32,092 nucleotides of DNA from Gammaproteobacteria bacterium (lineage in GTDB: Bacteria > Pseudomonadota > Gammaproteobacteria > Pseudomonadales > Azotimanducaceae), in the NCBI GenBank assembly GCA_009843635.1, contig VYDB01000106.1:1-32092 (forward strand), given 5' to 3'. Within the stretch, counting starts at the first letter, position 1; every line of letters begins with the position of its first letter. Below are positions 1,388 to 30,173 of this stretch, one piece after another. Both the position numbers and the translations under genes were made by a program. Below the pieces are notes generated by a model that was not told the origin of the DNA, ran no database searches, and saw nothing but the letters and a program-made list of their open reading frames with translations.

Positions 1388-1648
1388 TCAGCCCTCGGCC
1401 TTTGGGCTGCCATAAAGAAGCTGGTCATGATCGGCTGCCGACCGACTGTCGGTGGACCTGCCGACAGCATCGGCCTGATAGAGCGGGTCGTCCTCCACGG
1501 GGCCAAGCGCTAGGGAGCCGTCAATAGGAACGATGCGGAATGCGGGGCGGCTGCGATAGAGCACCATGAAGCCTTCACCTTTTCCGACGCGCTCGACAAT
1601 GTGGCCCAATTCCTGCCGAAGGGTTTTGACATTGATGGTGGTCAGCAT
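1388..1648 (-). CDS. Phd/YefM-family antitoxin
   Basis: An 86-residue antitoxin upstream of the PIN toxin. The N-terminal half (INVKTLRQELGHIVERVGKG, then FMVLYRSRPAFRIVPID) is the Phd/YefM DNA-binding fold: a short strand, an LRQEL-type helix and a hairpin ending in a 'vnyrgrpaarlvP'-like segment. The C-terminal half is polar and probably disordered until it wraps the toxin. The ATG at 1648 is preceded by GAGG repeats that serve as a ribosome site. A TTGACA box and an imperfect palindrome lie upstream, consistent with autorepression. Pairing of Phd-type antitoxins with PIN toxins is common. Confidence 0.88.
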   Translation of the reverse strand: MLTTINVKTLRQELGHIVERVGKGEGFMVLYRSRPAFRIVPIDGSLALGPVEDDPLYQADAVGRSTDSRSAADHDQLLYGSPKAEG

Positions 1649-1676
1649 TGGCCTCGCCTCGGTTGCTAGCGCGCAA

Positions 1677-1694
1677 GATCAACTTAAGATGATC
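1677..1694. promoter_or_regulatory. Imperfect palindrome, probable antitoxin operator
   Basis: GATCAACTTAAGATGATC reads as an inverted repeat (GATCA/TGATC arms around a central CTTAAG) with a single mismatched symmetric pair. It covers the -10 region of the Phd/VapC-like promoter, the position expected for autorepression by the antitoxin. Binding is inferred from position and symmetry. Confidence 0.5.
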
Positions 1695-1709
1695 TATTGA
1701 ATATGTCAA
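1681..1709 (-). promoter_or_regulatory. Promoter of the Phd/VapC-like operon
   Basis: On the - strand, a perfect -35 TTGACA (1709-1704) is followed after exactly 17 bases by TAAGTT (1686-1681), a weak -10. Transcription would start near 1674, about 26 bases before the antitoxin ATG. The -35 and spacing are good; the -10 matches only three of six consensus bases, so the call is moderate. Confidence 0.5.
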
Positions 1710-1782
1710 TGTCGGCGCTACGGTCCGGCCTCCTTCCGCAAACCACGCAATTGAAGCGCCCTTCGCGCCCAGAACGGTGCGT

Positions 1783-1813
1783 TATACTCCCCCCGCTCAA
1801 GCAGAGGCTTGAG
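1783..1813 (+). promoter_or_regulatory. Likely promoter and leader inverted repeat of the nor operon
   Basis: A -10-like TATACT at 1783-1788 lies about 50 bases before the first gene of the nor cluster. No convincing -35 is placed 16-18 bases upstream, which suggests an activator-dependent promoter. Just downstream, CTCAAG (1796-1801) and CTTGAG (1808-1813) form a perfect 6-bp inverted repeat around CAGAGG, either an operator or a leader hairpin. I could not match it to a known FNR/NNR, NorR or NsrR site. Confidence 0.35.
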
Positions 1814-1838
1814 TTCGGATTTTCCGTGAGGGGGCTTG

Positions 1839-2165
1839 ATGCTGGATCCAGTCGCCATCCATGAGATCGCCGGGGCGGCGTTCCTTGGCGGCGCGATCAT
1901 TCTCTTTGGCGCCGGTTACGCCCTGTTCCTTGCCCTTTCCCGCCTGCACGGCTCCGCCCTGTTTTCGCGCATCTCGCTTGCCTGCTACGCTGCGCTTGCG
2001 GCAAGCGCCGGGGGATTGACCGTGCTGCTCAATCTTTGGGGCTGGTGGCTGGCGCTGGTGGGCGCCCTGCTCGCCGGATACTTCGTTGCGCCGCGGTTCA
2101 TCTGGCGGTTGTCCGAAGCGGTCCACGGCGGTGCTTCGTCCGACTTGGAGGGTCATGGTGGCTGA
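1839..2165 (+). CDS. Small three-helix membrane protein of the nor operon
   Basis: A 108-residue hydrophobic protein with about three membrane segments: residues roughly 10-33 (GAAFLGGAIILFGAGYALFLAL), 42-65 and 66-86 (LLNLWGWWLALVGALLAGYFVA). I do not recognise a family. It precedes norC and its stop overlaps the norC start by 11 bases, so the two are translationally coupled. That placement suggests an assembly or structural accessory of the nitric oxide reductase. The ATG at 1839 has a good GAGGGGG ribosome site 4-5 bases upstream; a TTG one codon earlier is too close to that site. It is much smaller than NorE (a COX3-like protein) and is not a NorD or NorQ. Confidence 0.65.
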   Translation: MLDPVAIHEIAGAAFLGGAIILFGAGYALFLALSRLHGSALFSRISLACYAALAASAGGLTVLLNLWGWWLALVGALLAGYFVAPRFIWRLSEAVHGGASSDLEGHGG

Positions 2166-2796
2166 GGGCGCGGACGAGCCCCGCAGGGAGTGGTGGGCCA
2201 GCGAGGACTTTTGGCGCAAGTGCGCGATCTTCGTCACCGGCTTCATGGCCCTCGTGCTGGTGATGCTGACCTTCCACACGCTCACCGTCATCGAGGCGGG
2301 GTCGGAAGCGGGGCGGGTGCCGGCTTACTCCGTCATCAACCACCGCATCGGTTACGAATTCGACGAGCAGCGCAACTTCGCCGTGCCCGTGATCGGGCCG
2401 CCAGCGCCCCTGTTCGGCGAGATGCTGAGCGAGGAGGAGGCGCGCCGCTTGGTTGATCACGGCAAGCTGACGGTGCAGGCGCGCAACTGCATGAACTGCC
2501 ACACGCTGCTCGGCAACGGCGCCTACTACGCCCCGGATCTCACCAAGGCTTGGCTGGATCCGGGCTGGGGCAATGAATCGGCGCGGGAGATCCTGATGAC
2601 GCGCTTCCTCGACGATCCCATCGCCAACGCCCGCACCTTCGGAACCGGACGCCGGATGCCCGATCCGAACCTCACCGAGGCGGAGCTGCGGGGCGTAATC
2701 GCCTATCTGAAGTGGATGTCCGCCATCGACACCAACGGCTTCCCCCACGGCTTCACGCCGCTGCCCCAAGGGCCGCTGACCGGAGGCGGGCGATGA
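2155..2796 (+). CDS. norC: Nitric oxide reductase cytochrome c subunit NorC, extended form
   Basis: A 213-residue membrane-anchored cytochrome c that passes electrons to NorB for reduction of 2 NO to N2O on the periplasmic side. One N-terminal transmembrane helix (about 24-44) is followed by a single heme c site, C112-M-N-C115-H116, in NCMNCHTLLGNGAYYAPDL, which is closely NorC-like. The likely axial Met168 lies in GRRMPDPNLTEAEL, and the C-terminal LKWMSAIDTNGFP signature is also NorC-like. The segment between helix and heme is about 40-50 residues longer than in the Pseudomonas and Paracoccus proteins. The ATG at 2155 follows GGAGGG with short spacing; GTG at 2158 is an alternative. It overlaps norB by four bases (ATGA). 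Confidence 0.88.
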   Translation: MVAEGADEPRREWWASEDFWRKCAIFVTGFMALVLVMLTFHTLTVIEAGSEAGRVPAYSVINHRIGYEFDEQRNFAVPVIGPPAPLFGEMLSEEEARRLVDHGKLTVQARNCMNCHTLLGNGAYYAPDLTKAWLDPGWGNESAREILMTRFLDDPIANARTFGTGRRMPDPNLTEAELRGVIAYLKWMSAIDTNGFPHGFTPLPQGPLTGGGR

Positions 2797-4283
2797 CCTT
2801 CGGCCGGCTTGAATTCGCTTCGCTGCGCATCGGCCAGAAATTGGCGGTGCACTACTTCGCCGTGGCCATGGTGCTGTTCCTGGCGCAGATGCTGTTCGGG
2901 CTGCTGGCGGCTTGGCAGTTCCTTGACCCGGCGTTCCTGTTCGGCGTCCTTGATTTCAACGTGAACCGCATGGTGCACATCAACGCCATGGTGGTGTGGA
3001 TGCTGTACGGCTTCATCGGCTCCATTTACTGGCTGGTGGAGGACGAGGCCGGCGTGCCGCTGGTGGGCCCGCGCATTGCCAAGGCCGCCTTCTGGGTGTT
3101 TACAGTGGCGGTGACCATTGTCGTCGTCGTGTACCTGTTCGTGCAAAGCGGCCCCGGGGACGCTTGGACGCTCTGGCTCATCAACGAGGGCCGGGAGTAC
3201 ATCGAGGCGCCCCGGTGGGCGGACATCGGCATCGTCGTTTGCATGCTTGCCATCTTCTACAACGTGGCCGGCACCTTCCTGGCGGGGCGCTGGAGCGGCA
3301 TATCCGGTGTGTTGGTGCTCGACCTGGTGGCGTTGGCGGGCCTCTACCTGGCCGGCATGTTCTACACCACCAACCTGCCCATGGACCAGTACTGGTGGTG
3401 GTGGGTGATCCACCTGTGGGTGGAGGCCACTTGGGAGGTGCTGGTCGGCTGCATCATGGCCTGGGGGCTGATCAAGACCCTCGGCGCCCGGCGCCGCATC
3501 GTAACCACTTGGCTCTACATCGAGGTGGCGCTGATGTTCGGCTCGGGCATCCTGGGGCTCGGCCATCACTATTTCTGGATCGGCACGCCGGAATACTGGC
3601 TTGGCGTTGGCGGCTTCTTCTCGGCGCTCGAGCCCATACCCCTGGTGGCGATGGTGGTGCATGCCGTTTACGACGCCGGCCGGCACGCCTTCCGGGCCAA
3701 CAACCACCCGGCGCTCGCTTGGCTGATCGCGCACGCCTTCGGCAACTTCCTGGGCGCTGGCGTTTGGGGATTCATGCAGACGCTGCCGCAGATCAACCTC
3801 TACACCCACGGCACGCAGTGGTCGTCCTCCCACGGGCACCTGGCCTTCTTTGGCGCCTACGTCACCATCATCGTGGCGATGATCTACGTCGCCGTGCAGC
3901 GGCTGCGGGGCAATGTCTGGATGTCCGCCGGACTGCAGGGCGGCTGGCGCTGGAAGTGGGCGCTTGGGCTCACCCATCTCGGCATGATGGGCATGACCGT
4001 CGCCCTCCTGATCGCCGGCTACGAGCAGTCATTCGTGGAGCGTGCCATCGGCGGCTCCACTTGGCAGGCCTATTTCGAGGGCCAGACCCAACCTTGGTTC
4101 GTGGAGGCGATGTGGTGGCGCATGGCGTTCGGGGTGCTGATGACCTTCGGAGTGGTCCTGCTGCTGTGGGACTTGGTGCGGATCGGCGTCGGGGAGAAAC
4201 GGCCGATGAAGGTCGTGGGTGGCTTGGACGATGTGGAAGAGACTGGCAGCGGGCCGGTGCCTGAGGGCTCTGCAGCGGGTTGA
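2793..4283 (+). CDS. norB: Nitric oxide reductase catalytic subunit NorB
   Basis: A 496-residue, roughly 12-helix heme-copper oxidase family protein that reduces NO at a heme b3/non-heme iron site. All key residues of the characterised cNOR are visible: H62 and H349 (heme b), H347 (heme b3), H207, H258 and H259 with E211 (FeB) in VIHLWVEATWE and GLGHHYFW, and E280 in FFSALEPIP. It lacks the long N-terminal extension of quinol-dependent qNOR, so it should use the adjacent NorC. The ATG at 2793 lies in the ATGA overlap with the norC stop behind GGAGGCGGG; upstream codons in frame read as non-membrane sequence. The C-terminal 30 residues are hydrophilic and not conserved in the family. Confidence 0.95.
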   Translation: MTFGRLEFASLRIGQKLAVHYFAVAMVLFLAQMLFGLLAAWQFLDPAFLFGVLDFNVNRMVHINAMVVWMLYGFIGSIYWLVEDEAGVPLVGPRIAKAAFWVFTVAVTIVVVVYLFVQSGPGDAWTLWLINEGREYIEAPRWADIGIVVCMLAIFYNVAGTFLAGRWSGISGVLVLDLVALAGLYLAGMFYTTNLPMDQYWWWWVIHLWVEATWEVLVGCIMAWGLIKTLGARRRIVTTWLYIEVALMFGSGILGLGHHYFWIGTPEYWLGVGGFFSALEPIPLVAMVVHAVYDAGRHAFRANNHPALAWLIAHAFGNFLGAGVWGFMQTLPQINLYTHGTQWSSSHGHLAFFGAYVTIIVAMIYVAVQRLRGNVWMSAGLQGGWRWKWALGLTHLGMMGMTVALLIAGYEQSFVERAIGGSTWQAYFEGQTQPWFVEAMWWRMAFGVLMTFGVVLLLWDLVRIGVGEKRPMKVVGGLDDVEETGSGPVPEGSAAG

Positions 4284-4689: not shown

Positions 4690-6702
4690 ATGGCGGAACC
4701 GCTCGAGCCCCAAGCGGCGTTCAACCACGCCATTCACCTGATCAACTCGGGTCGGGTCAGCGCCGCCGCGGCCTTCTGCCGCGATGCGGTGGAGCGGGAT
4801 CCGCAGGACGTCAACATGACGGCGCTGCTGGGCGCCATCCTCCTGAAGCTGCGCGAGTTCGAAGCGGCTGAGAAGCATCTGCGGAGCGCCATCGAGCTGG
4901 CGCCCACCTTCGCCAAACCCCACGAGGATCTCGGCCGCCTGCTGGTGGAACTGGGTCGGCCGGAGGAGGCCGTCGAGGTGCTGAGGGTGGCCACCCGGCT
5001 GGATCCCAAGTCGGAAACGGCCTTCTTCACGCTGGGCCGGGCGCTGTCCATGGCCGGGGACGGCGACCAGGCGGACGCCGCCTTCGAGGCCTCCTTCGAA
5101 CTCAACCCGCAGCGCCGAAAGCTTGCCTTGGCGGCCGAGCACCACAAGGCGGGGCGGCACGAGGAGGCGAGCCGCCAGTACCGGGCGCTGCTGGCGGAAT
5201 CACCCAACGACGTGGATGCCATGCGCCTGCTGGCGGGCATTCTGGCCAGCCAATCCGATGTGGAGGAGGCGGAAGCGCTGCTCAGGAAGGCCGTTTCGCT
5301 GGCCCCGGACTATGCCCTTGCCTTTCTCGACTTGGGCCGGCTCTTTCAGGAGCAGCACCGCTACGCTGAGGCCATCGAGTGCTTTCAGCGCACCATTCGG
5401 CTGCAGCCGAGCGCCGCCAAGCCGCGCCACCTGCTGGCCTCGACCTTGGCGCCGGTGGGCCGCACCGAGGATGCCTTGGACGCCTACCGCCAAGTGCTGG
5501 AACTGCAGCCGCGCCATGCCGGCGCTTGGCTGGGGCTCGGCCATACGCTCAAGACCGTTGGACGGCAGCGAGAGGCCATCGACGCGTACCGGGAATGCAT
5601 CCGGGTGCGGCCGGACAACGGCGAGACCTATTGGAGCCTGGCCAACCTGAAGACCTATCGGCTCACCGCCGACGACATGGGGGCCATGGAGTCGGCCCTG
5701 GCGCGAGCCGATGAACTGACCGATCAATCCGCGGTCAACTTCCTGTTTGCCTTGGCCAAGGCGCACGAGGATGCAGGCGACTTCGACACGGCCTGGGATT
5801 ACTACCAACGTGGCAACGCCAAGCAGCGAATGCTTGAGCACTATGATCCGGTGCAGACCGAGACGGCCAACGACGAGATCATCGAGACGTTCGATGCCTC
5901 GTTCCTGCAAAGCGCTGCGGGCCAAGGCCATCCGGATGCGGCGCCGATATTCGTCCTTGGGCTGCCCCGCTCCGGCTCCACCCTGATCGAACAGATACTG
6001 GCCAGCCACAGCCAGGTTGAAGGCACCTCGGAACTGCCCTACCTGGGCCGAGTGGCCACCTCCCTGAACCGGAACCGCGCCGATGGCGTCAACTACCCGC
6101 AGGCGGTGCGCGAGCTACGGGCCGCCCACTTCAAGGCCTTGGGCCACGACTACCTGCAGCGCGCCCAGGTGCATCGGCGCTCCGAGAAGTCCCGCTTCGT
6201 GGACAAGATGCCCAACAACTTCCCCTCGATCGGCTTTCTGCACCTGGTTCTGCCCAATGCCAAGATCATCGACGCCCGCCGCTACCCCTTGGACGCCACC
6301 CTAAGCTGCTACCGTCAACTGTTCGCCAAGGGCCAGACCTTTGTGTATGACCTCACGGAGATCGGCGAGTACTTCCTGGAGTACCAGCGGCTGATGGACC
6401 ACTGGCACGAGGTGCTGCCGGGCCGCGTCCTGACCGTGCAGTACGAAGACTTGGTAACGGATTTCGACCGCCAGTTGCGGCGCCTGCTCGACTACTGCGA
6501 GCTGCCTTGGGAGGACGCCTGCGCCAACTTCCACGAGACTGACCGCCCGGTTCGCACGGCCAGCTCCGAACAGGTGCGCCAACCCATCTACGTCAAGTCG
6601 ATCCACTTCTGGCGCAACTACGAAGCCCATCTTGGCGAGTTGATCGAAGTGCTGGAGCCAGTGCTGCCCCGCTACGCCCAATACGAGGCGATCAACCGCT
6701 GA
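4690..6702 (+). CDS. TPR-repeat sulfotransferase
   Basis: A 670-residue protein with two parts. Residues about 8-350 are tandem tetratricopeptide repeats with the usual G/A/Y and P spacing (for example AEKHLRSAIELAPTF and AIECFQRTIRLQPSA). Residues about 415-645 are a Sulfotransfer_3-type domain that uses PAPS. The 5'-phosphosulfate loop is FVLGLPRSGSTLIEQIL with G424 to L432. The 3'-phosphate segment is KIIDARRYPLDATLSCYR, with R530 and S539 as likely contacts. The TPR part probably selects a protein or peptide acceptor, which is unknown. No signal peptide is seen, so it is cytoplasmic. ATG 4690 follows an AAGGGAAA site. The stop overlaps the convergent yqeY by 11 bases. Confidence 0.88.
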   Translation: MAEPLEPQAAFNHAIHLINSGRVSAAAAFCRDAVERDPQDVNMTALLGAILLKLREFEAAEKHLRSAIELAPTFAKPHEDLGRLLVELGRPEEAVEVLRVATRLDPKSETAFFTLGRALSMAGDGDQADAAFEASFELNPQRRKLALAAEHHKAGRHEEASRQYRALLAESPNDVDAMRLLAGILASQSDVEEAEALLRKAVSLAPDYALAFLDLGRLFQEQHRYAEAIECFQRTIRLQPSAAKPRHLLASTLAPVGRTEDALDAYRQVLELQPRHAGAWLGLGHTLKTVGRQREAIDAYRECIRVRPDNGETYWSLANLKTYRLTADDMGAMESALARADELTDQSAVNFLFALAKAHEDAGDFDTAWDYYQRGNAKQRMLEHYDPVQTETANDEIIETFDASFLQSAAGQGHPDAAPIFVLGLPRSGSTLIEQILASHSQVEGTSELPYLGRVATSLNRNRADGVNYPQAVRELRAAHFKALGHDYLQRAQVHRRSEKSRFVDKMPNNFPSIGFLHLVLPNAKIIDARRYPLDATLSCYRQLFAKGQTFVYDLTEIGEYFLEYQRLMDHWHEVLPGRVLTVQYEDLVTDFDRQLRRLLDYCELPWEDACANFHETDRPVRTASSEQVRQPIYVKSIHFWRNYEAHLGELIEVLEPVLPRYAQYEAINR

Positions 6703-8618: not shown

Positions 8619-8685
8619 GTGTTGCAAGGAGCGTTTATTATGTTGAGCAGGCCCTAAACTTGGGGCCGAGAGGGAGGTGCCATCC

Positions 8686-11673
8686 ATGATTAACCGCATG
8701 ATTCGTGTGTCGGTTCTGTTGGGGTTTTGGGTTCTGGGTGCGCAGTCCGCGCTGGCCCAGCAGGCTGGGTCAAGCCAAGCGCCGGAATCCGAAGCGATCG
8801 AGGAGCAGACTTTGCCAGTGGAGGCCACGGAGGAGTCGGCTAACGACGCCGGGCCAGTGGAGGAGATCGTGGTCACCGGGTCGCGCATCCGGCGCAACAC
8901 CTTCACCAGCACGTCGCCGGTAACGGTCATCACCAGTGAGCGGTCGGCCTTGGCAGGGCTGCTTGACACGACGGACATTCTGCAGTCGTCCACTATCGCC
9001 TCCGGGCAGCAAATTGACGATTCCTTTTCCGGATTCGTGACCGATGGCGGCCCTGGCGCCAATACACTGTCGCTACGCGGCTTGGGTGCCCAGCGCACCC
9101 TGATCCTGGTGAACGGCAAACGCTGGGGCTCCTCCGGCGTACGGGGCTCGACCAATTCGGTGGACCTCACTGCCATCCCCTCGTCGATCGTTTCCCGCAT
9201 TGAAATCCTCAAGGACGGCGCCTCTTCGGTGTATGGCGCAGACGCGGTGGCCGGGGTGGTCAACGTGATCACCAAGACTCGCCAAGACGGCCTGCAGGTC
9301 AATGTGGCCGGAGGCTTTCCCGGCGAGGGCGGCGGCGAGCAGTACGGCATCGACGCCGTCTGGGGCAAAATCGGCAGCGATTGGTCGTTCCACGTTGCCG
9401 CCGACTACAGCAAGCAGCGGGAGTTGCGGCAATCGCAGCGGGATTGGGCAGCCTGCAATCGGCGCCCGCGGCTGACCGACCAAGACGGCGGCGGCGATAT
9501 CGACAACCGCGACCCGGCCACTGGCGAGGAGCTTTGCTTTGGCGCGGTTTACGGCTTTGCGGTTTCGCCGTTCGGCTGGGTGCACTACAACCCCGACCTT
9601 GGCCCGGGTGCCGACCCCGCCTCACCGTTCTTCGACCCCTTGTTGAACGGCGCGCTGGGCATTCCTTGGTTCACGCGGGAACCTGCTGGCCCGTTGGATA
9701 ACCAAGGCGACTTCTACCGGGACACGCGCAGTCCGCAAATCGCGCAGATGATCTCGGAATCGGATCGGTTCTCGGTCACCGCCTATGCCGACAAGGATTT
9801 GACGCTTTTTGGGAACAACGCCAACGCTTTCCTGGAGTTCTACTACAACCAGCGCGACACCCGCGCCAACGGCGGCCACCGGCAGTTGTTCGAGGCGGTT
9901 CCCGCCAGCAATCCGACCAATCCCTTTGGAGATCACGGCCCGCTGCCTGCCGCTTTCGGACGAGGCTTCGCCGCTCTGCCGGTGCTGATGAGCTACGGCC
10001 TCCAGGATCCAGACACCCATGTGGACGTTTGGAGATACAACCTGTTCGGGGGGATCGAGGGGGAGCTTTCCAGCACTTGGTCCTACAACGGCCACTTGGG
10101 CTACAGCTACTCAAAGGGAAGCTACGAGTCGGACAACTGGTTGGATGACCGCGTCGTCGCGTCGCTGGACGCCACGCTGGACGATAACGGCAACTTGGTG
10201 TGCCGGCAATTGGACCGTTACCCCGGCTGCATCGCCCCAAACATGTTCACGGGCGGGGCCCTGCTCGAAGGCACCCTGCCAGCGGACTACGTCGACTACA
10301 TCTCCAAGGTCACTAGGGGCGAGACCATCTACAAGGGCTGGCAAGCCTCCGGCTACGTCACGGGGACGCTGTTTTCGCTGTGGGACGACGAAGCGGTAAG
10401 CCTGGTGGTTGGCGGTGAGGTGCGCCGCGAGGAGATCGACGATGAGCCCGACCCGGAGTCGCAGAACGACAACGTCTGGGGTTCAACCTCGGCCCTGATC
10501 ACCGCCGGCAAGGATACGGTGCGGGAATTGTTTGTCGAGCTGGAGTTGCCGCTGCTTCCGCCCAACACGCCCTTGGCCGAAGAGGTGCTGCTCAATCTGT
10601 CCAGCCGCTACACCGACTACAACTCCTACGGGGACGACTGGACGGAGCGGGCGCAGCTCAGTTGGCAGTTCAACCCCTGGCTGCGGCTCAGGGGCACCTA
10701 CGGCACCTCGTTCCGCGCACCGGACCTGTTCGAGCAGTTTCTGGGCGACGAGACCGGATTTTTAGGCTTGCTGGTCGATCCCTGCGTCCAATACGGTGAG
10801 AACAACGATCCCGGCGACCCCATCTACGACAACTGCGCAAGCCTCGGTCTGCCGCCAGACCACGGCAGCGACGGTGGTCCTGGCGTGCGCGCCATCACTG
10901 GCGGCAACCCGGATCTGCAGGCGGAGACTTCAAAGTCCTGGACCGCTGGCTTGGTCCTCTCGCCCGAGCAACTGGGCGCTTCCTTGGCGTTGAACTTCTT
11001 CGAAATCGAACTCAAGAACACGGTCGCCAGCCCGAGTGTGGGCTATGTGCTGTTCCAATGCCTTAACTCCGCCGGCCTCAGCCACCCGTTCTGCGATCGC
11101 ATCGCGCCGCGCGACGTGGATGGTTTTCTGACCGATGTGGACGCCTCCCTGCTGAACGTCGGCATCCAGCGCACCAAGGGCCTTGATGTGGACCTCCTGT
11201 ACGAGCGGGCCTTCTCACGCTTCGACCTGGCGGTGGACCTCTCCGTCACACACCTCAGGGAGCAGTACGAACAATTGCTTGGCGAGGAATACGAGTTGGC
11301 TGGCCGCTGGGGCTTTCCCAAGTGGACGGCGGAACTCGACATCTACGTGGACTGGCGTGAGTGGCGTTTCCTATACAGCGTGGGCTACGTCGGCCACAGC
11401 CGGGAGGAGCGCCAATTCGACCCCGGCACGACCAACGTGGACCGCATTCGCAGAACGCCGTCCAAGGACTACCATACCCTGTCGGCTCGCTACACCAGCC
11501 CCAACGATTGGCAGGTCATCGCCAGCGTGCGCAACCTGTTTGATTCCGACCCGCCCATCGTTTCCGACGGCCAAGGATCGAATTCCGCTGGCCGAATCTT
11601 CAACACGATACCGGGGGCCGGCTACGACCTGCTCGGCCGCACCTTCGTGCTGCAGATATCAAAGGGTTTCTGA
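8686..11673 (+). CDS. TonB-dependent outer membrane receptor
   Basis: A 995-residue outer membrane transporter that imports a bulky substrate using energy from TonB. The signal peptide is residues 1-24 (cleavage after SALA). An acidic linker leads to the TonB-box-like EEIVVTGSR and then the plug domain, with NTLSLRGLGAQRTLILVNGKR and VSRIEILKDGASSVYGADAVAGVVNVITK as landmarks. The rest is a beta barrel ending with an aromatic residue (TFVLQISKGF). ATG 8686 is favoured over GTG 8677 because GGGAGG (8672-8677) is eight bases upstream. A secreted peptidase follows after three bases, so peptides or a peptide-bound cofactor are plausible substrates. Substrate identity is inference. Confidence 0.93.
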   Translation: MINRMIRVSVLLGFWVLGAQSALAQQAGSSQAPESEAIEEQTLPVEATEESANDAGPVEEIVVTGSRIRRNTFTSTSPVTVITSERSALAGLLDTTDILQSSTIASGQQIDDSFSGFVTDGGPGANTLSLRGLGAQRTLILVNGKRWGSSGVRGSTNSVDLTAIPSSIVSRIEILKDGASSVYGADAVAGVVNVITKTRQDGLQVNVAGGFPGEGGGEQYGIDAVWGKIGSDWSFHVAADYSKQRELRQSQRDWAACNRRPRLTDQDGGGDIDNRDPATGEELCFGAVYGFAVSPFGWVHYNPDLGPGADPASPFFDPLLNGALGIPWFTREPAGPLDNQGDFYRDTRSPQIAQMISESDRFSVTAYADKDLTLFGNNANAFLEFYYNQRDTRANGGHRQLFEAVPASNPTNPFGDHGPLPAAFGRGFAALPVLMSYGLQDPDTHVDVWRYNLFGGIEGELSSTWSYNGHLGYSYSKGSYESDNWLDDRVVASLDATLDDNGNLVCRQLDRYPGCIAPNMFTGGALLEGTLPADYVDYISKVTRGETIYKGWQASGYVTGTLFSLWDDEAVSLVVGGEVRREEIDDEPDPESQNDNVWGSTSALITAGKDTVRELFVELELPLLPPNTPLAEEVLLNLSSRYTDYNSYGDDWTERAQLSWQFNPWLRLRGTYGTSFRAPDLFEQFLGDETGFLGLLVDPCVQYGENNDPGDPIYDNCASLGLPPDHGSDGGPGVRAITGGNPDLQAETSKSWTAGLVLSPEQLGASLALNFFEIELKNTVASPSVGYVLFQCLNSAGLSHPFCDRIAPRDVDGFLTDVDASLLNVGIQRTKGLDVDLLYERAFSRFDLAVDLSVTHLREQYEQLLGEEYELAGRWGFPKWTAELDIYVDWREWRFLYSVGYVGHSREERQFDPGTTNVDRIRRTPSKDYHTLSARYTSPNDWQVIASVRNLFDSDPPIVSDGQGSNSAGRIFNTIPGAGYDLLGRTFVLQISKGF

Positions 11674-24785: not shown

Positions 24786-24815
24786 ACGATTCTGCCTCGT
24801 CGGTCTGAGGCGATG

Positions 24816-26855
24816 ATGTGCATCTCGTTTCAATCGCTGAAGTCTTGGCGCGCGACCGTGCTTCTAGGTGTTGTGTGCGTCGCGTCTTCGGCATGTGGGT
24901 CGGAGAAGATGGACTCGGCGGCGCATTCAACGGGAATGGATGAGCACGGCGGGACGCCGCGTCTGCCGCCGCCCGCAGCGACAATCAATGGCGATGCTGA
25001 AATGGTTGCTGGCCGAAAGGCCTACTTCGGCGACCTCCACGTCCACACCACCTATTCACTCGATGCCTTTCAGTTCGGCACGCTGGCGACGCCTGACGAT
25101 GCCTACCGCTTCGCTCGAGGCGCAGCTATCCAGCATCCGGCTGGCTTCGAAATGCAGCTCGGCCGGCCCCTGGACTTTTACGCGGTAACGGACCACGGCT
25201 TCTATCTTGGCGTGGTCCGAGCGGGGGCCGACACTTCAACCGAGATCTCCGCCTACGCGGCCATGAAGTCGATCCACAATCTGAATGCCGCCGAAAACCT
25301 GACCCTCGAGAGCATCCCTGGGCGGAACTTTCGCGCTTGGATCGGGGGCTTGAGAAATGCAATGGCGGGCTCCGAGCCGCTAAGGGCGGAGGTGGCGCGC
25401 ATCATGCGCTCGACCTGGGCAGACTCGGTGCGGGCTGCGGACCGCCATTACGAGCCTGGAAAGTTCACCACCTTCGCCGCCTATGAGTTCTCAACGACCA
25501 AGGAGGACGGTGGCAGCATGCACCGGAATGTCGTCTTCCGCGGCACCGAGAACATGCCGGCGATGCCGTTCAATCGACTCAATTCACTTGATCCAGAGGA
25601 TCTATGGAACTGGATGGACGAACTGAGGAAAAAGGGCGTTGAGAGCCTGGCCATCCCGCACAACTCCAACAAGTCCAATGGACAGATGTTCGAACTGGCC
25701 ACCTGGGCAGGTGACCCGATGACGCTGGCGCACAACGAAAAGCGCATGCGCAACGAACCGCTGGTTGAAATCACCCAAGTCAAAGGCACCTCTGAAACGC
25801 ACCCGGCGCTCTCCATGAATGACGAATGGGCTGGCTTCGAAATCGACCCCTACGTGGCTGGCGGCGGACCTTTGACCATCGCCAAGACCGCAGGTGGCTA
25901 TGTGCGAGATGCGATGAAGAAGGGATTGCTGCTGGAGGCGGAAGGGTTGGGCAACCCGTTCGAGTACGGCTTTATCGGATCTTCCGACACGCATACCGGC
26001 GCGGGTTCTTACGATGAAACGAATTTCTTCGCGAAGGTGGGTCTCCTCGACTCAACCGCCGCCCTTCGTGGTTCGGTGCCGATCAGCGACGACGACCTGA
26101 CAACCCTGGGCCTAAGCGATGCAGAAGACTCGGCGTTCTATGTCGCGTCGGATGGCAGGCGCTATCTGTCGCGCAATGCATCGGTCTATGGCGCGTCAGG
26201 CTTGGCGGCTGTGTGGGCTGAGGAGAACACCAGGGAATCCATCTATGACGCCTTCCGCCGCAAGGAAGCTTTTGCAACTTCTGGGCCGCGGATGCAAGTG
26301 CGCTTCTTTGCGGGACATGGCCTCGACAGCACGATGCTGGAAACAGCAGATGGGATTTCCCGCGCGTACATCCAAGGTGTGTCGATGGGTGGAGACCTAG
26401 TGGCGAAGCCCGGCGATGCACCGGCCTTTGTTGTGTGGGCTGCCCGAGATGCGCAATCGGCGCCATTGCAACGTGTGCAGATCATCAAGGGCTGGCTTGA
26501 GGACGGCGAAACCCACGAGCGCGTGTTTGATGTTGCCTGCTCGGACGGATTGGCGGTTGACCCGGCAACGCACCGCTGCCCGGATAATGGCGCCAAAGTG
26601 AACCTATCTGATTGTGCCATTTCCGCCGACCGGGGCGCGGTAGAGCTGAAGGCGCTTTGGCATGACCCGGAATTTGACGGACAACAAAGAGCGTTCTACT
26701 ACGCTCGCGTCCTGGAAAACCCAACCTGTCGATGGTCCACCTGGGATGCCCTTCGCGCCGGCGTGGCACCTCGCGAGGATCTTGGGTTGGTTATTCAGGA
26801 ACGGGCTTGGTCTTCCCCGATTTGGATGATTCCGCATGGTGCCAAGGCTTTGTGA
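24816..26855 (+). CDS. DUF3604 lipoprotein, PHP-like metal-dependent hydrolase fold
   Basis: A 679-residue exported protein of the DUF3604 family, which resembles PHP metal-dependent phosphoesterases; its substrate is unknown. The N-terminus (SWRATVLLGVVCVASSAC) has a hydrophobic stretch ending at a Cys near residue 26, so it is probably a lipoprotein. Metal-binding motifs are FGDLHVHTTYSLDAF, YAVTDHGFYLG, AIPHNSNKSNG and GSSDTHTGAGSYDE. ATG 24816 is preferred because TGAGG is five bases upstream; an ATG one codon earlier is too close. Codon choice looks less strongly biased than in the carboxylase gene (for example ACC before TGG rather than ACT), which could mean separate acquisition. It follows the palindrome and has no clear functional partner here. 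Confidence 0.85.
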   Translation: MCISFQSLKSWRATVLLGVVCVASSACGSEKMDSAAHSTGMDEHGGTPRLPPPAATINGDAEMVAGRKAYFGDLHVHTTYSLDAFQFGTLATPDDAYRFARGAAIQHPAGFEMQLGRPLDFYAVTDHGFYLGVVRAGADTSTEISAYAAMKSIHNLNAAENLTLESIPGRNFRAWIGGLRNAMAGSEPLRAEVARIMRSTWADSVRAADRHYEPGKFTTFAAYEFSTTKEDGGSMHRNVVFRGTENMPAMPFNRLNSLDPEDLWNWMDELRKKGVESLAIPHNSNKSNGQMFELATWAGDPMTLAHNEKRMRNEPLVEITQVKGTSETHPALSMNDEWAGFEIDPYVAGGGPLTIAKTAGGYVRDAMKKGLLLEAEGLGNPFEYGFIGSSDTHTGAGSYDETNFFAKVGLLDSTAALRGSVPISDDDLTTLGLSDAEDSAFYVASDGRRYLSRNASVYGASGLAAVWAEENTRESIYDAFRRKEAFATSGPRMQVRFFAGHGLDSTMLETADGISRAYIQGVSMGGDLVAKPGDAPAFVVWAARDAQSAPLQRVQIIKGWLEDGETHERVFDVACSDGLAVDPATHRCPDNGAKVNLSDCAISADRGAVELKALWHDPEFDGQQRAFYYARVLENPTCRWSTWDALRAGVAPREDLGLVIQERAWSSPIWMIPHGAKAL

Positions 26856-27723: not shown

Positions 27724-28629
27724 ATGTCAACTGCCACAGCCCATCCGCCGGTCGCCTACATGGCGCGCACCAAGCGCTATTACGAGGCCCAAGGCTATGC
27801 CAAGCCCTATGTGTGGGCGCACTTTGATGAAGTTCCCTTCACCAAGCCAGCCAAGCCGCTGGCGGAATCGACCCTTGCCATCATCACCACCTCGGCCCTC
27901 CACGACCGCCGAGCCACGGACCCCCGGGCCGTTGCCTCCGCTGCCACGGCGGCAGCGCCGCCGCTGTTCGCCAATGACTTGGCCTGGGACAAGAAAGCCA
28001 CCCATCTTGATGACCGCGAGACCTTCCTGCCCCTTGCGCCGTTGCGGGCGATGGTGGATGAGGGCCGATTGGGCGCGCTCGCCAAACGGTTCCACTGCGT
28101 GCCCACGGAATACAGCCAGCGCCGCACCCGCACTGAGGATGCGCCGGAGATTCTTCGCCGCTGCCGGGAGGATGGCGCCGACATCGCCTTGCTGGTACCG
28201 CTATGACCGGTCTGCCACCAGACCGTGAGTCTGGTCGCGCGCGGCCTGGAGGCGGACGGCATCGCCACCGTGGTGCTCGGCTCCGCCCTCGACATCGTGG
28301 AGCACTGCGGGGTGCCGCGCTTCGCCTTTGCGGACTTTCCGCTCGGCAACCCCTGCGGCCGGCCTTGGGATGGCGTCATGCAGAGACAGGTGGTGGCGTC
28401 CGCGATGGCATTGTTTGAGACGGCCGCCGGCCCGCGCACCACGGCGCGCCTGCCCTACCGTTGGGGCGGGGACGAAAGCTGGCGGGACAACTACATGGCC
28501 ATCCGCGAAGCCGACCTAGACGTCTTGCGCCGGCAAGGCGACGAACGCCGAGCGCTGCGGCGCAAGCGAGCGGCGGGAACGCAAACTCCGGCTCACTCCA
28601 CGCCCATGAGCTTTCTGACAAGCCGGTAG
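27724..28629 (+). CDS. Selenocysteine-containing GrdB/PrdB-family reductase-like protein
   Basis: One frame of 301 residues with a single in-frame TGA at 28204-28206, read as selenocysteine at residue 161. Before the stop: YMARTKRYYEAQGYAKPYVWAHFDEVPF, LAIITTSALHD, CREDGADIALLVPL. After it, in the same frame: PVCHQTVSLVARGLEADGIATVV, IVEHCGVPRFAFADFPLGNPCGRPWD. This is the glycine/sarcosine/betaine or proline reductase selenoprotein B family, in which Cys homologues carry Cys-Pro-Val-Cys; here the first Cys is replaced by the TGA, giving U-P-V-C. A SECIS-like hairpin follows. The protein is probably a cytoplasmic thiol/selenol redox enzyme of unknown substrate. ATG 27724 lacks a strong ribosome site; ATG 27760 is possible. 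A pseudogene is the main alternative. The 3' end overlaps the acyl-CoA synthetase gene by 37 bases. Confidence 0.85.
28217..28235 (+). promoter_or_regulatory. Bacterial SECIS element
   Basis: ACCAGAC (28217-28223) and GTCTGGT (28229-28235) form a perfect 7-bp stem with loop CGTGA. The loop begins 17 bases after the TGA and has G in its second position. Bacterial SECIS consensus asks for an apical loop of 3-14 bases, 16-37 bases after the UGA, with G among the first two loop bases, and all three hold. It would bind SelB and direct Sec insertion. Confidence 0.75.
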
Positions 28630-30173
28630 TTGACCTTTCCGTTTGCGTGGCGAAAACCACCATCTACGAATTCGATCCGTTTCGGGTGCTTGTACCTAGC
28701 CAGCTTGCCACTCAAGTGTGATTGGACGTCTTGCATGGCTAGGCTCCGGTGCTTTTCCGAGTTCACCACGGCCGCGACGGCCTGCCCCCAACGTTCATCG
28801 GGGATGCCGATCACCGCGACATCATGAATCAGTGGGTGCAGTTTCAGCGCTTCCTCGACTTCCTCCGGGTAGATTTTCTCACCACCGGAGTTGATGCAGT
28901 TGTTGCCCCGGCCCAACAGGGTAATGCTGCCGTCACTCTCGACTCGACACCAGTCGCCGGCTATGGAGTACCTGACGCCATTGATGGTAGGGAAGGTCTT
29001 TGCTGTGCCTTCATCATCCTTGTAGTAACCAAGCGGTATTGGGCCCGCCGTGGCAATCAGCCCAGCCTCACCGGAGCCCGCTTCCACTTCTCGGAAGTCT
29101 TCCGTGAACACCTTGGCGTGAGGGCCGAGCTGAAAGCGCGCGGTTTCAACCTCATCGCCGTTCTTGGATGATCTTGATCCGAGCCTGGAGCCTTCGCTGG
29201 ACCCCAGCGAATCGTTCATCGATGCGTTGGGAAAGTGCGCCATGAGTTGTTGCTTGCGTTCAGCGCTCCACATGGCCCCAGCCGAGGTGATCACCCTGAC
29301 GGAAGAGAGATCGTAATCCGCGCTTCGATCGGTCAAGTGCTCCAGAATAGGCACGGAAAATGCGTCGCCGACGATCGCAACCGTCTGCACTCTGTGGTCT
29401 TCGATGGCCCGCAGGCAAACCTCGGCGTCGAATGACTTGGTGGGCAGCAGGACCGTGGTGCCGCCGCTCAGGAGACTGGCGACCGCGGTGGTGAATCCGG
29501 TTGAGTGCATGAGCGGGCATGCGGGCAGCAGAACAGAGACTGGGCTTGCCGCGACGGCTTCAGCATGCCTTGCCGCATCGTCCCCTCTTGCCATGCCGAT
29601 CACGGCAATCCTGTGCTTGTGCGGCCACATGACCGCCTTGGGATAGCCGGTCGTACCGCCGGTGTACATGAAGTAGAGATCATCCCCAGACCGCTCTATC
29701 CCGAGCGGCGCCGCATCTCCTTCAGAACACGCCTTCTCAAAGCTCTCGGCAGGCTCGCCTTTTGCTTCGTCACCGACTGCAAGATACAGCCGAACCTTGG
29801 GCAAACGGGGCGCCAGGGTTTCAACATGCCCGCCGAACTCAGCGTCATAAACGACAGCTTCCGCATCCGAATTGTCGAGCACATGGAAAAGTTCGTTGTC
29901 GACGTAGAGGTAGTTGACATTGGCATGGGTCAGACGTGCCTTCGAGCAGGCGACGAACAGCTCAAGATAAGCAGGGCTGTTCCGTAGATAGAATGCCACT
30001 TTGCTACCGGGCCGAAGCCCTGCCTCCATCAGCTTCCTGGCCAGGCGATTGGATCGCTCGTCGAGCTCCCGCCATGTCAGCTCGGCATCGCCGTAGATGA
30101 TCGCCGTTCGCTGAGGGATGGCTTGTGCGAGCGCCTCGAACAGATCGCCAAAGTTCAAATCGGGAATGTTCAA
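28593..30173 (-). CDS. AMP-binding acyl-CoA synthetase
   Basis: A 526-residue ANL-superfamily ligase that activates a carboxylic acid with ATP and joins it to CoA. The phosphate-binding loop is YFMYTGGTTGYPKAVMWPH, the aromatic/acidic A5-like motif is MNDSLGSSEG, the A7-A8 region is IAGDWCRVESDGSITLLGRGNNCINSGGEKIYPEEVE, and the catalytic A10 lysine is in FRHANGKVNYRLV. The overall look is close to FadD3/FadD17-type synthetases for unusual acids, but the acid is not predictable. It starts with TTG at 30173 behind GAGAGG (30180-30185) at six bases. It lies 39 bases after the PQQ dehydrogenase gene on the same strand, so an alcohol oxidised there could feed an acid to this enzyme. Confidence 0.9.
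   Translation of the reverse strand: MNIPDLNFGDLFEALAQAIPQRTAIIYGDAELTWRELDERSNRLARKLMEAGLRPGSKVAFYLRNSPAYLELFVACSKARLTHANVNYLYVDNELFHVLDNSDAEAVVYDAEFGGHVETLAPRLPKVRLYLAVGDEAKGEPAESFEKACSEGDAAPLGIERSGDDLYFMYTGGTTGYPKAVMWPHKHRIAVIGMARGDDAARHAEAVAASPVSVLLPACPLMHSTGFTTAVASLLSGGTTVLLPTKSFDAEVCLRAIEDHRVQTVAIVGDAFSVPILEHLTDRSADYDLSSVRVITSAGAMWSAERKQQLMAHFPNASMNDSLGSSEGSRLGSRSSKNGDEVETARFQLGPHAKVFTEDFREVEAGSGEAGLIATAGPIPLGYYKDDEGTAKTFPTINGVRYSIAGDWCRVESDGSITLLGRGNNCINSGGEKIYPEEVEEALKLHPLIHDVAVIGIPDERWGQAVAAVVNSEKHRSLAMQDVQSHLSGKLARYKHPKRIEFVDGGFRHANGKVNYRLVRKLMGVE

Follow-up and report, generated by a model that had tools for sequence, protein, structure and literature searches.

A PrdB-like selenoprotein gene in a gammaproteobacterial genome in which no PrdA was found

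The window, a 32,092-nucleotide stretch of a gammaproteobacterial contig, contains a gene interrupted by a TGA codon, raising the question of whether this codon ends translation or encodes selenocysteine (Sec) and, if it encodes Sec, what kind of enzyme the complete frame specifies. The sequence-only reading had proposed a single GrdB/PrdB-family selenoprotein whose family sequence runs unbroken across the TGA, and the coordinates, frame and motif bear this out. One plus-strand frame of 301 residues extends from 27724 to 28629, continues without a shift through 28204-28206, where the TGA is its sole interruption, and ends at a TAG closing at 28629. The TGA is residue 161, in the context ALLVPL-U-P-V-C-H-Q-T-V-S-L-V-A-R. 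The features of the locus are as follows.

27724..28629, plus strand: predicted selenoprotein gene encoding 301 residues when the TGA is taken as Sec161; distantly homologous to PrdB and to the C-terminal part of GrdB
28204..28206, plus strand: TGA codon, predicted Sec161 and first residue of U-P-V-C; TGA or TGC in relatives, aligned with the TGA of clostridial PrdB
28213..28215, plus strand: TGC codon for Cys164, which would be the resolving Cys in the UxxC pair; invariant in a 47-row alignment (A2)
28217..28235, plus strand: SECIS-like hairpin, stem 28217-28223 / 28229-28235 and loop 28224-28228 (CGTGA), recognized by pair retention, covariation and fold

The TGA codon among relatives

Relatives were gathered by scanning a collection of genome contigs with six peptide patterns that all lie outside the TGA site. 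The scan picked up 238 stretches coding for a relative, and we retained the best 80 loci. Matched residues span the TGA site in all 80, and the aligned codon is TGA in 77 (among them L036, which holds ambiguous bases and whose codon was read separately) and TGC in 3. In a draw of genomes from the phylum, the family is present in 18 of 397 at E ≤ 1e-20, the window's own genome counted, and the 17 others contribute 19 further loci, 3 with TGA and 16 with a Cys codon. Clostridial PrdB likewise has an in-frame TGA in the same alignment column (3/3 records). Residue 161 thus aligns with Sec or Cys codons throughout, in agreement with the earlier proposal that the TGA replaces the first Cys of a redox motif, and the gene shows the in-frame UGA at a Sec/Cys site that is expected of a bacterial selenoprotein.

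We compared the part of the gene beyond the TGA with that of six relatives, at a fixed offset and without gaps. Against L015, L016 and L017, dN was 0.017-0.039 and dS 0.125-0.539 (dN/dS about 0.07-0.15); against L018, L019 and L044, dN was 0.19-0.26 and dS 0.84-1.41 (dN/dS 0.15-0.26). With dN well below dS, the downstream part is under purifying selection; coding constraint continues past the TGA, with no degeneration of codon use.

TGA normally stops translation, and a plain listing of open reading frames yields two fragments here, as would be expected if a decaying gene had acquired a nonsense mutation or been misassembled. This reading is refuted by the conservation of the codon across species, TGA standing at the same position in 77 of the best 80 of the 238 stretches and in many assemblies. 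Purifying selection on the downstream part argues against decay, as do a hairpin kept with compensatory changes and a complete Sec machinery in the genome (both described below). We consider mutation or misassembly vanishingly improbable, and the earlier argument that a chance nonsense mutation would hardly fall on this codon is upheld by the shared TGA and the maintained hairpin.

Sec UGA codons are as a rule read through incompletely, and the UGA could instead serve mainly as a regulated stop, with a 160-residue fragment as the working product and Sec inserted only occasionally. Residues past the UGA are nevertheless among the most conserved of the protein, with C164, H165, Q166, R199, D204, W247 and W253 invariant in the 47 rows of A2, and the Cys forms have an open frame across the site. 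H194 and C195 are likewise conserved. The invariant residues and the open frame of the Cys forms argue against a regulated stop, which we regard as very improbable. From these comparisons, the gene is almost certainly a selenoprotein gene and not a pseudogene. Sequence could hardly make the Sec assignment firmer, so an annotation that splits the gene in two would be wrong.

A downstream hairpin and the selenocysteine machinery

A SECIS-like hairpin had been proposed downstream of the TGA. The fold shows, starting 10 bases after this codon, a 7-bp stem closed by a loop of five bases (28217-28235). Its free energy, compared with that of synonymous recodings, gave a weak signal (mean z -0.54, with p <0.05 in just 6 of 78 TGA rows, the site in L096 not being located), possibly because alternative folds are open to GC-rich recodings. 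We next tested the 7 specific pairs themselves; both tests were done without L036 and include the window's own copy (L094) and the near-copy L014. All 7 pairs are present in 69 of the 78 TGA rows, six in 8 rows and five in 1; under codon-preserving recoding, an average of 4.8 pairs would be expected, with all 7 present in 5.0% of cases. The loop is CGTGA in 65 of these 78 rows. Three further TGA rows, from the phylum draw, keep 7 pairs (two rows) or 6 (one row). None of 19 Cys rows, a count that leaves out two plasmid Cys rows, keeps all 7: three have 4, 6 and 6 pairs, and the other sixteen have 3-6.

The stem also covaries. Changes on both sides of a pair occur at three of the 7 pairs, in 8, 13 and 2 of the 78 TGA rows. 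In alignment A1, comprising 34 TGA-locus rows hand-picked for variety (the L095 row starts three bases late, past its TGA, leaving the stem columns unaffected), 15 cells carry both-side changes, a value that 0 of 500 shuffles equalled, and slid versions of the stem pair in at most 35.3% of cells versus 95.8% for the actual one. For two of the five covariation measures, pairs changed (3) and pair types (5), 54 of 500 shuffles attained the observed value. When the codons are read by eye, compensation in some cases changes the protein sequence, as where His CAC to CAT is matched by Val GTC to Ile ATC. Rfam gave no match in the window at gathering thresholds. By pair retention and covariation, then, the alignments indicate a real, covarying hairpin of the SECIS type expected of a bacterial selenoprotein, for which the free-energy z-score alone is a weak sign.

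It had further been predicted that the organism possesses the Sec machinery, and a search of its genome (4.49 Mb, 96.5% complete) recovered selA, selB, selC and selD, the full set expected alongside a bacterial selenoprotein. The tRNA-Sec (selC) scores 75.2 bits against a gathering score of 47 and has the anticodon tca by ARAGORN; selB (419.7 bits), selA (504.6 bits) and selD (255 bits) each exceed their cut-offs. The tRNA-Sec, selB and selA lie together on contig C116, with selB beside selA, and selD lies on C129.

We also searched for selB in 48 related-genome records, one of them a plasmid without a match. Of 45 Sec-form genomes, 40 had a match at E ≤ 1e-60 (one of the 40 below the family's cut-off), as did both Cys-form genomes; the five Sec-form genomes without a match are possibly incomplete bins. 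In the phylum draw, selB was found in 3 of 3 Sec-form versus 1 of 15 Cys-form genomes, with a Fisher p of 0.005 that is inflated by relatedness, because 10 of the 15 Cys-form genomes belong to one genus. In one genome (G443), the Sec-form gene, at position 4481 of L124, lies beside a 739-residue ORF (1660-3876) that by eye resembles a dehydrogenase-SelD fusion; selB is about 11 kb away on that contig. On this case, a link between the PrdB-like family and sel genes is possible.

Relationship to PrdB and GrdB

The family assignment of the sequence-only reading stands as regards homology; membership by the curated PrdB and GrdB cut-offs does not. The best NCBIfam model is PrdB (TIGR04483), at 78.4 bits (E 5.4e-22) against a cut-off of 300, while a plasmid-borne PrdB close to prdA, used as a control, scores 424.7 bits. 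Pfam GRDB (PF07355) reaches 17.5 bits against a gathering cut-off of 22, and the GrdB-type NCBIfam models also fall below their cut-offs. Homology to clostridial PrdB covers residues 39-247, with Sec in the same column followed by x-x-C-H, so that the U-x-x-C-H motif is present at the aligned PrdB position. The match leaves out the residues before 39 and those after 247, the motif reads U-P-V-C-H-Q where clostridial PrdB has U-G-T-C-H-R, and no PrdA partner was found with the window protein. The likeness to GrdB, GrdF and GrdH (PF07355) is weaker, involving the C-terminal half and the UxxC region; the N-terminal half is unmatched, and PF09338 (GrdE) was not found in the window's own genome. 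Judged by these profile scores, the window protein is a distant PrdB homologue below the curated cut-off. A search by sequence for a solved structure found none for the window protein (best E 0.062) or the family profile, and none for true PrdB (best E 0.01).

Phylogenetic analysis of 86 rows, rooted at the midpoint, united the 81 family rows in a supported group that a long branch sets apart from PrdB. In this tree L014 stands for the window, L036 and L094 are left out, the 19 phylum-draw loci are absent, and the tool warns of possible misplacement of the long rows L095 and L096. Its five Cys rows require at least 2 changes, four being grouped beside the Sec row L087 and the fifth, L057, lying beside the Sec row L063, which fits repeated replacement of Sec by Cys. 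Plasmid relatives from Roseomonas and Haematobacter, named 'glycine/sarcosine/betaine reductase selenoprotein B family protein', fall inside the family with 46-49% identity over 84-85% of the query and have Cys where the window protein has Sec. L014 is 99% identical to the window locus but comes from an assembly with the title Chloroflexota (RHO3_bin_22), whereas the titles of the next nearest relatives read Gammaproteobacteria/Pseudomonadales; the L014 contig is probably misplaced in that assembly.

The window's own genome contains two further divergent PrdB-like genes, at 38% (L095) and 29% (L096) identity, which score 167.7 and 125.4 bits with the PrdB model. Each has one in-frame TGA at the same site, in UPVC or UPNC, and the hairpin is strong in L095 and weaker in L096.

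L095, 1990-1992: TGA codon of a PrdB-like gene in the window's own genome
L096, about 1405-2217, minus strand: PrdB-like ORF in the window's own genome

The genome, where the search for PrdA gave no match, thus holds three PrdB-like selenoprotein genes.

D-proline reductase is described as needing a pyruvoyl subunit, PrdA, which binds proline before the Sec of PrdB attacks (PMC3091704). The Pfam model PF09338 matches PrdA, as seen with a control record carrying prdA. Going by its name, we take this model to cover GrdE as well. In the window's own genome, neither PF09338 (PrdA/GrdE) nor GrdA (PF04723) was matched, in searches that had no working positive control. In a search in which the control record with prdA was matched, PF09338 was not found in 45 of 47 related genomes carrying the PrdB-like family, drawn from the best 80 loci. 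The two genomes with a match, those of L076 and L086, are titled Rokubacteria/Rokuibacteriota. Loci L104 and L105 are from two Rokubacteria genomes with both a PrdB-like family gene and a PF09338 (PrdA/GrdE-type) gene.

These results bear on whether the protein is a true D-proline reductase PrdB, or the B component of a glycine or betaine reductase, acting in Stickland-type amino acid reduction. PrdB is its best NCBIfam model, its UxxCH motif aligns with that of clostridial PrdB, and surveys have labelled the marine UxxC group as proline reductase (PMC1088965, PMC2398784). Against this stand a score far below both the cut-off and the plasmid PrdB near prdA, the failure to find PF09338 in its own genome and in 45 of 47 related ones, and the long branches separating the family from PrdB. 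Below-cut-off homology together with the PrdA/GrdE search results makes a Stickland role unlikely, and we consider a true PrdB or reductase B component here quite improbable. It is likewise unlikely that the family as a whole functions like the proline or glycine reductases described from clostridia.

Gene neighbourhood, proposed mechanism and the marine group

An AMP-binding ligase ORF (28593-30173, minus strand) is convergent with the selenoprotein gene and overlaps its 3' end by 37 bases; the other immediate neighbour is a TauE/SafE-like gene on the minus strand, named via the 99%-identical L014. The locus had been described as lying next to nor and TonB genes. A TonB receptor is indeed in the window (8677-11673) but about 16 kb away, and none of 20 window ORFs scanned with Pfam, at least one of them in a wrong frame, was named as nor. 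Elsewhere on the plus strand, the window encodes a TPR-repeat protein with a sulfotransferase domain at its C-terminus (4690-6702) and a full-length DUF3604 protein (24813-26855, 743 bits). AMP-binding ligases recur near the gene in relatives and were not counted as a signal; the window's own genome has 33 at E ≤ 1e-20.

Among relatives, CoA-transferase family III is the top family of co-directional neighbours, with 15 of 72 versus 3 of 71 on the opposite strand, counts made without a genome-wide background on gene calls from a simple script, not a gene finder. The 15 represent about four lineages by clustering, with 8 in one genus; 10 representatives are 25-39% identical between lineages and 54-56% within one clade. 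Enoyl-CoA hydratase occurs in 4/72 co-directional versus 1/71 opposite-strand neighbours. Together, these two families hint weakly at catabolism of CoA-linked compounds or organic acids, and that the substrate is CoA-linked is a conjecture we consider rather unlikely. HpcH/HpaI aldolase is found in 6/72 neighbours, all from one marine gammaproteobacterial clade (L047, L052, L054, L058, L060 and L071), where the putative aldolase ORF lies downstream of the PrdB-like gene in the same orientation.

The comparative evidence, taken with the full sel set, points to SelB-dependent Sec insertion: SelB with Sec-tRNA would read the UGA at 28204-28206 as Sec through the hairpin 10 bases downstream. By homology with PrdB and GrdB, Sec161 and Cys164 would form a U-x-x-C redox pair: the selenolate would attack the substrate, Cys164 would convert the intermediate into a selenenyl-sulfide, and a cellular thiol system would re-reduce the latter. 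Most likely the protein reduces a small organic substrate, perhaps CoA-linked or an organic acid, acting alone or with another partner. As the pyruvoyl subunit PrdA/GrdE was not found, we favour such a stand-alone or other-partner reductase over a D-proline or glycine reductase. A PrdA-independent redox enzyme is likely, most likely a stand-alone selenol/thiol reductase. The reading as a whole, a Sec-decoded 301-residue U-x-x-C selenoprotein acting as a PrdA-free reductase of a small substrate, is one in which we have high confidence.

UxxC selenoproteins named PrdB have been catalogued in the ocean since 2005, with 42 genes reported in a Sargasso Sea survey (PMC1088965) and 235 in the GOS survey (PMC2398784). 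Proline reductase accounted for 6.4% of selenoprotein genes in a later marine study (PMC9402790), and D-proline reductase (TIGR04483, UxxC) figures in the list of known selenoproteins given by a 2026 review (PMC13188914). The marine 'PrdB' group of Zhang et al. shares the UxxC motif and PrdB homology with the window protein, a comparison of motif and description as reported, not of sequences, and is probably the same family. A term search gave 0 occurrences of PrdA in PMC2398784, and no description of a PrdA-free PrdB family was found in the parts of the literature searched. The kind of selenoprotein encoded here is therefore already known, but in this genome its usual partner was not found.

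Proline reductase is one of the commoner marine selenoprotein families, and yet its essential subunit was not found in 45 of 47 family-carrying genomes. If the published marine group is this PrdB-like family, a sizeable part of marine selenium use would be doubtfully labelled. We put forward as a tentative possibility that the abundant 'proline reductase' selenoproteins of ocean and soil are a separate, PrdA-free selenoenzyme class, mislabelled for two decades, which would reductively process CoA-linked or organic-acid substrates in ordinary proteobacteria that do not carry out Stickland fermentation. The genome described here, with its three PrdB-like genes, is a good place for testing the functional label.
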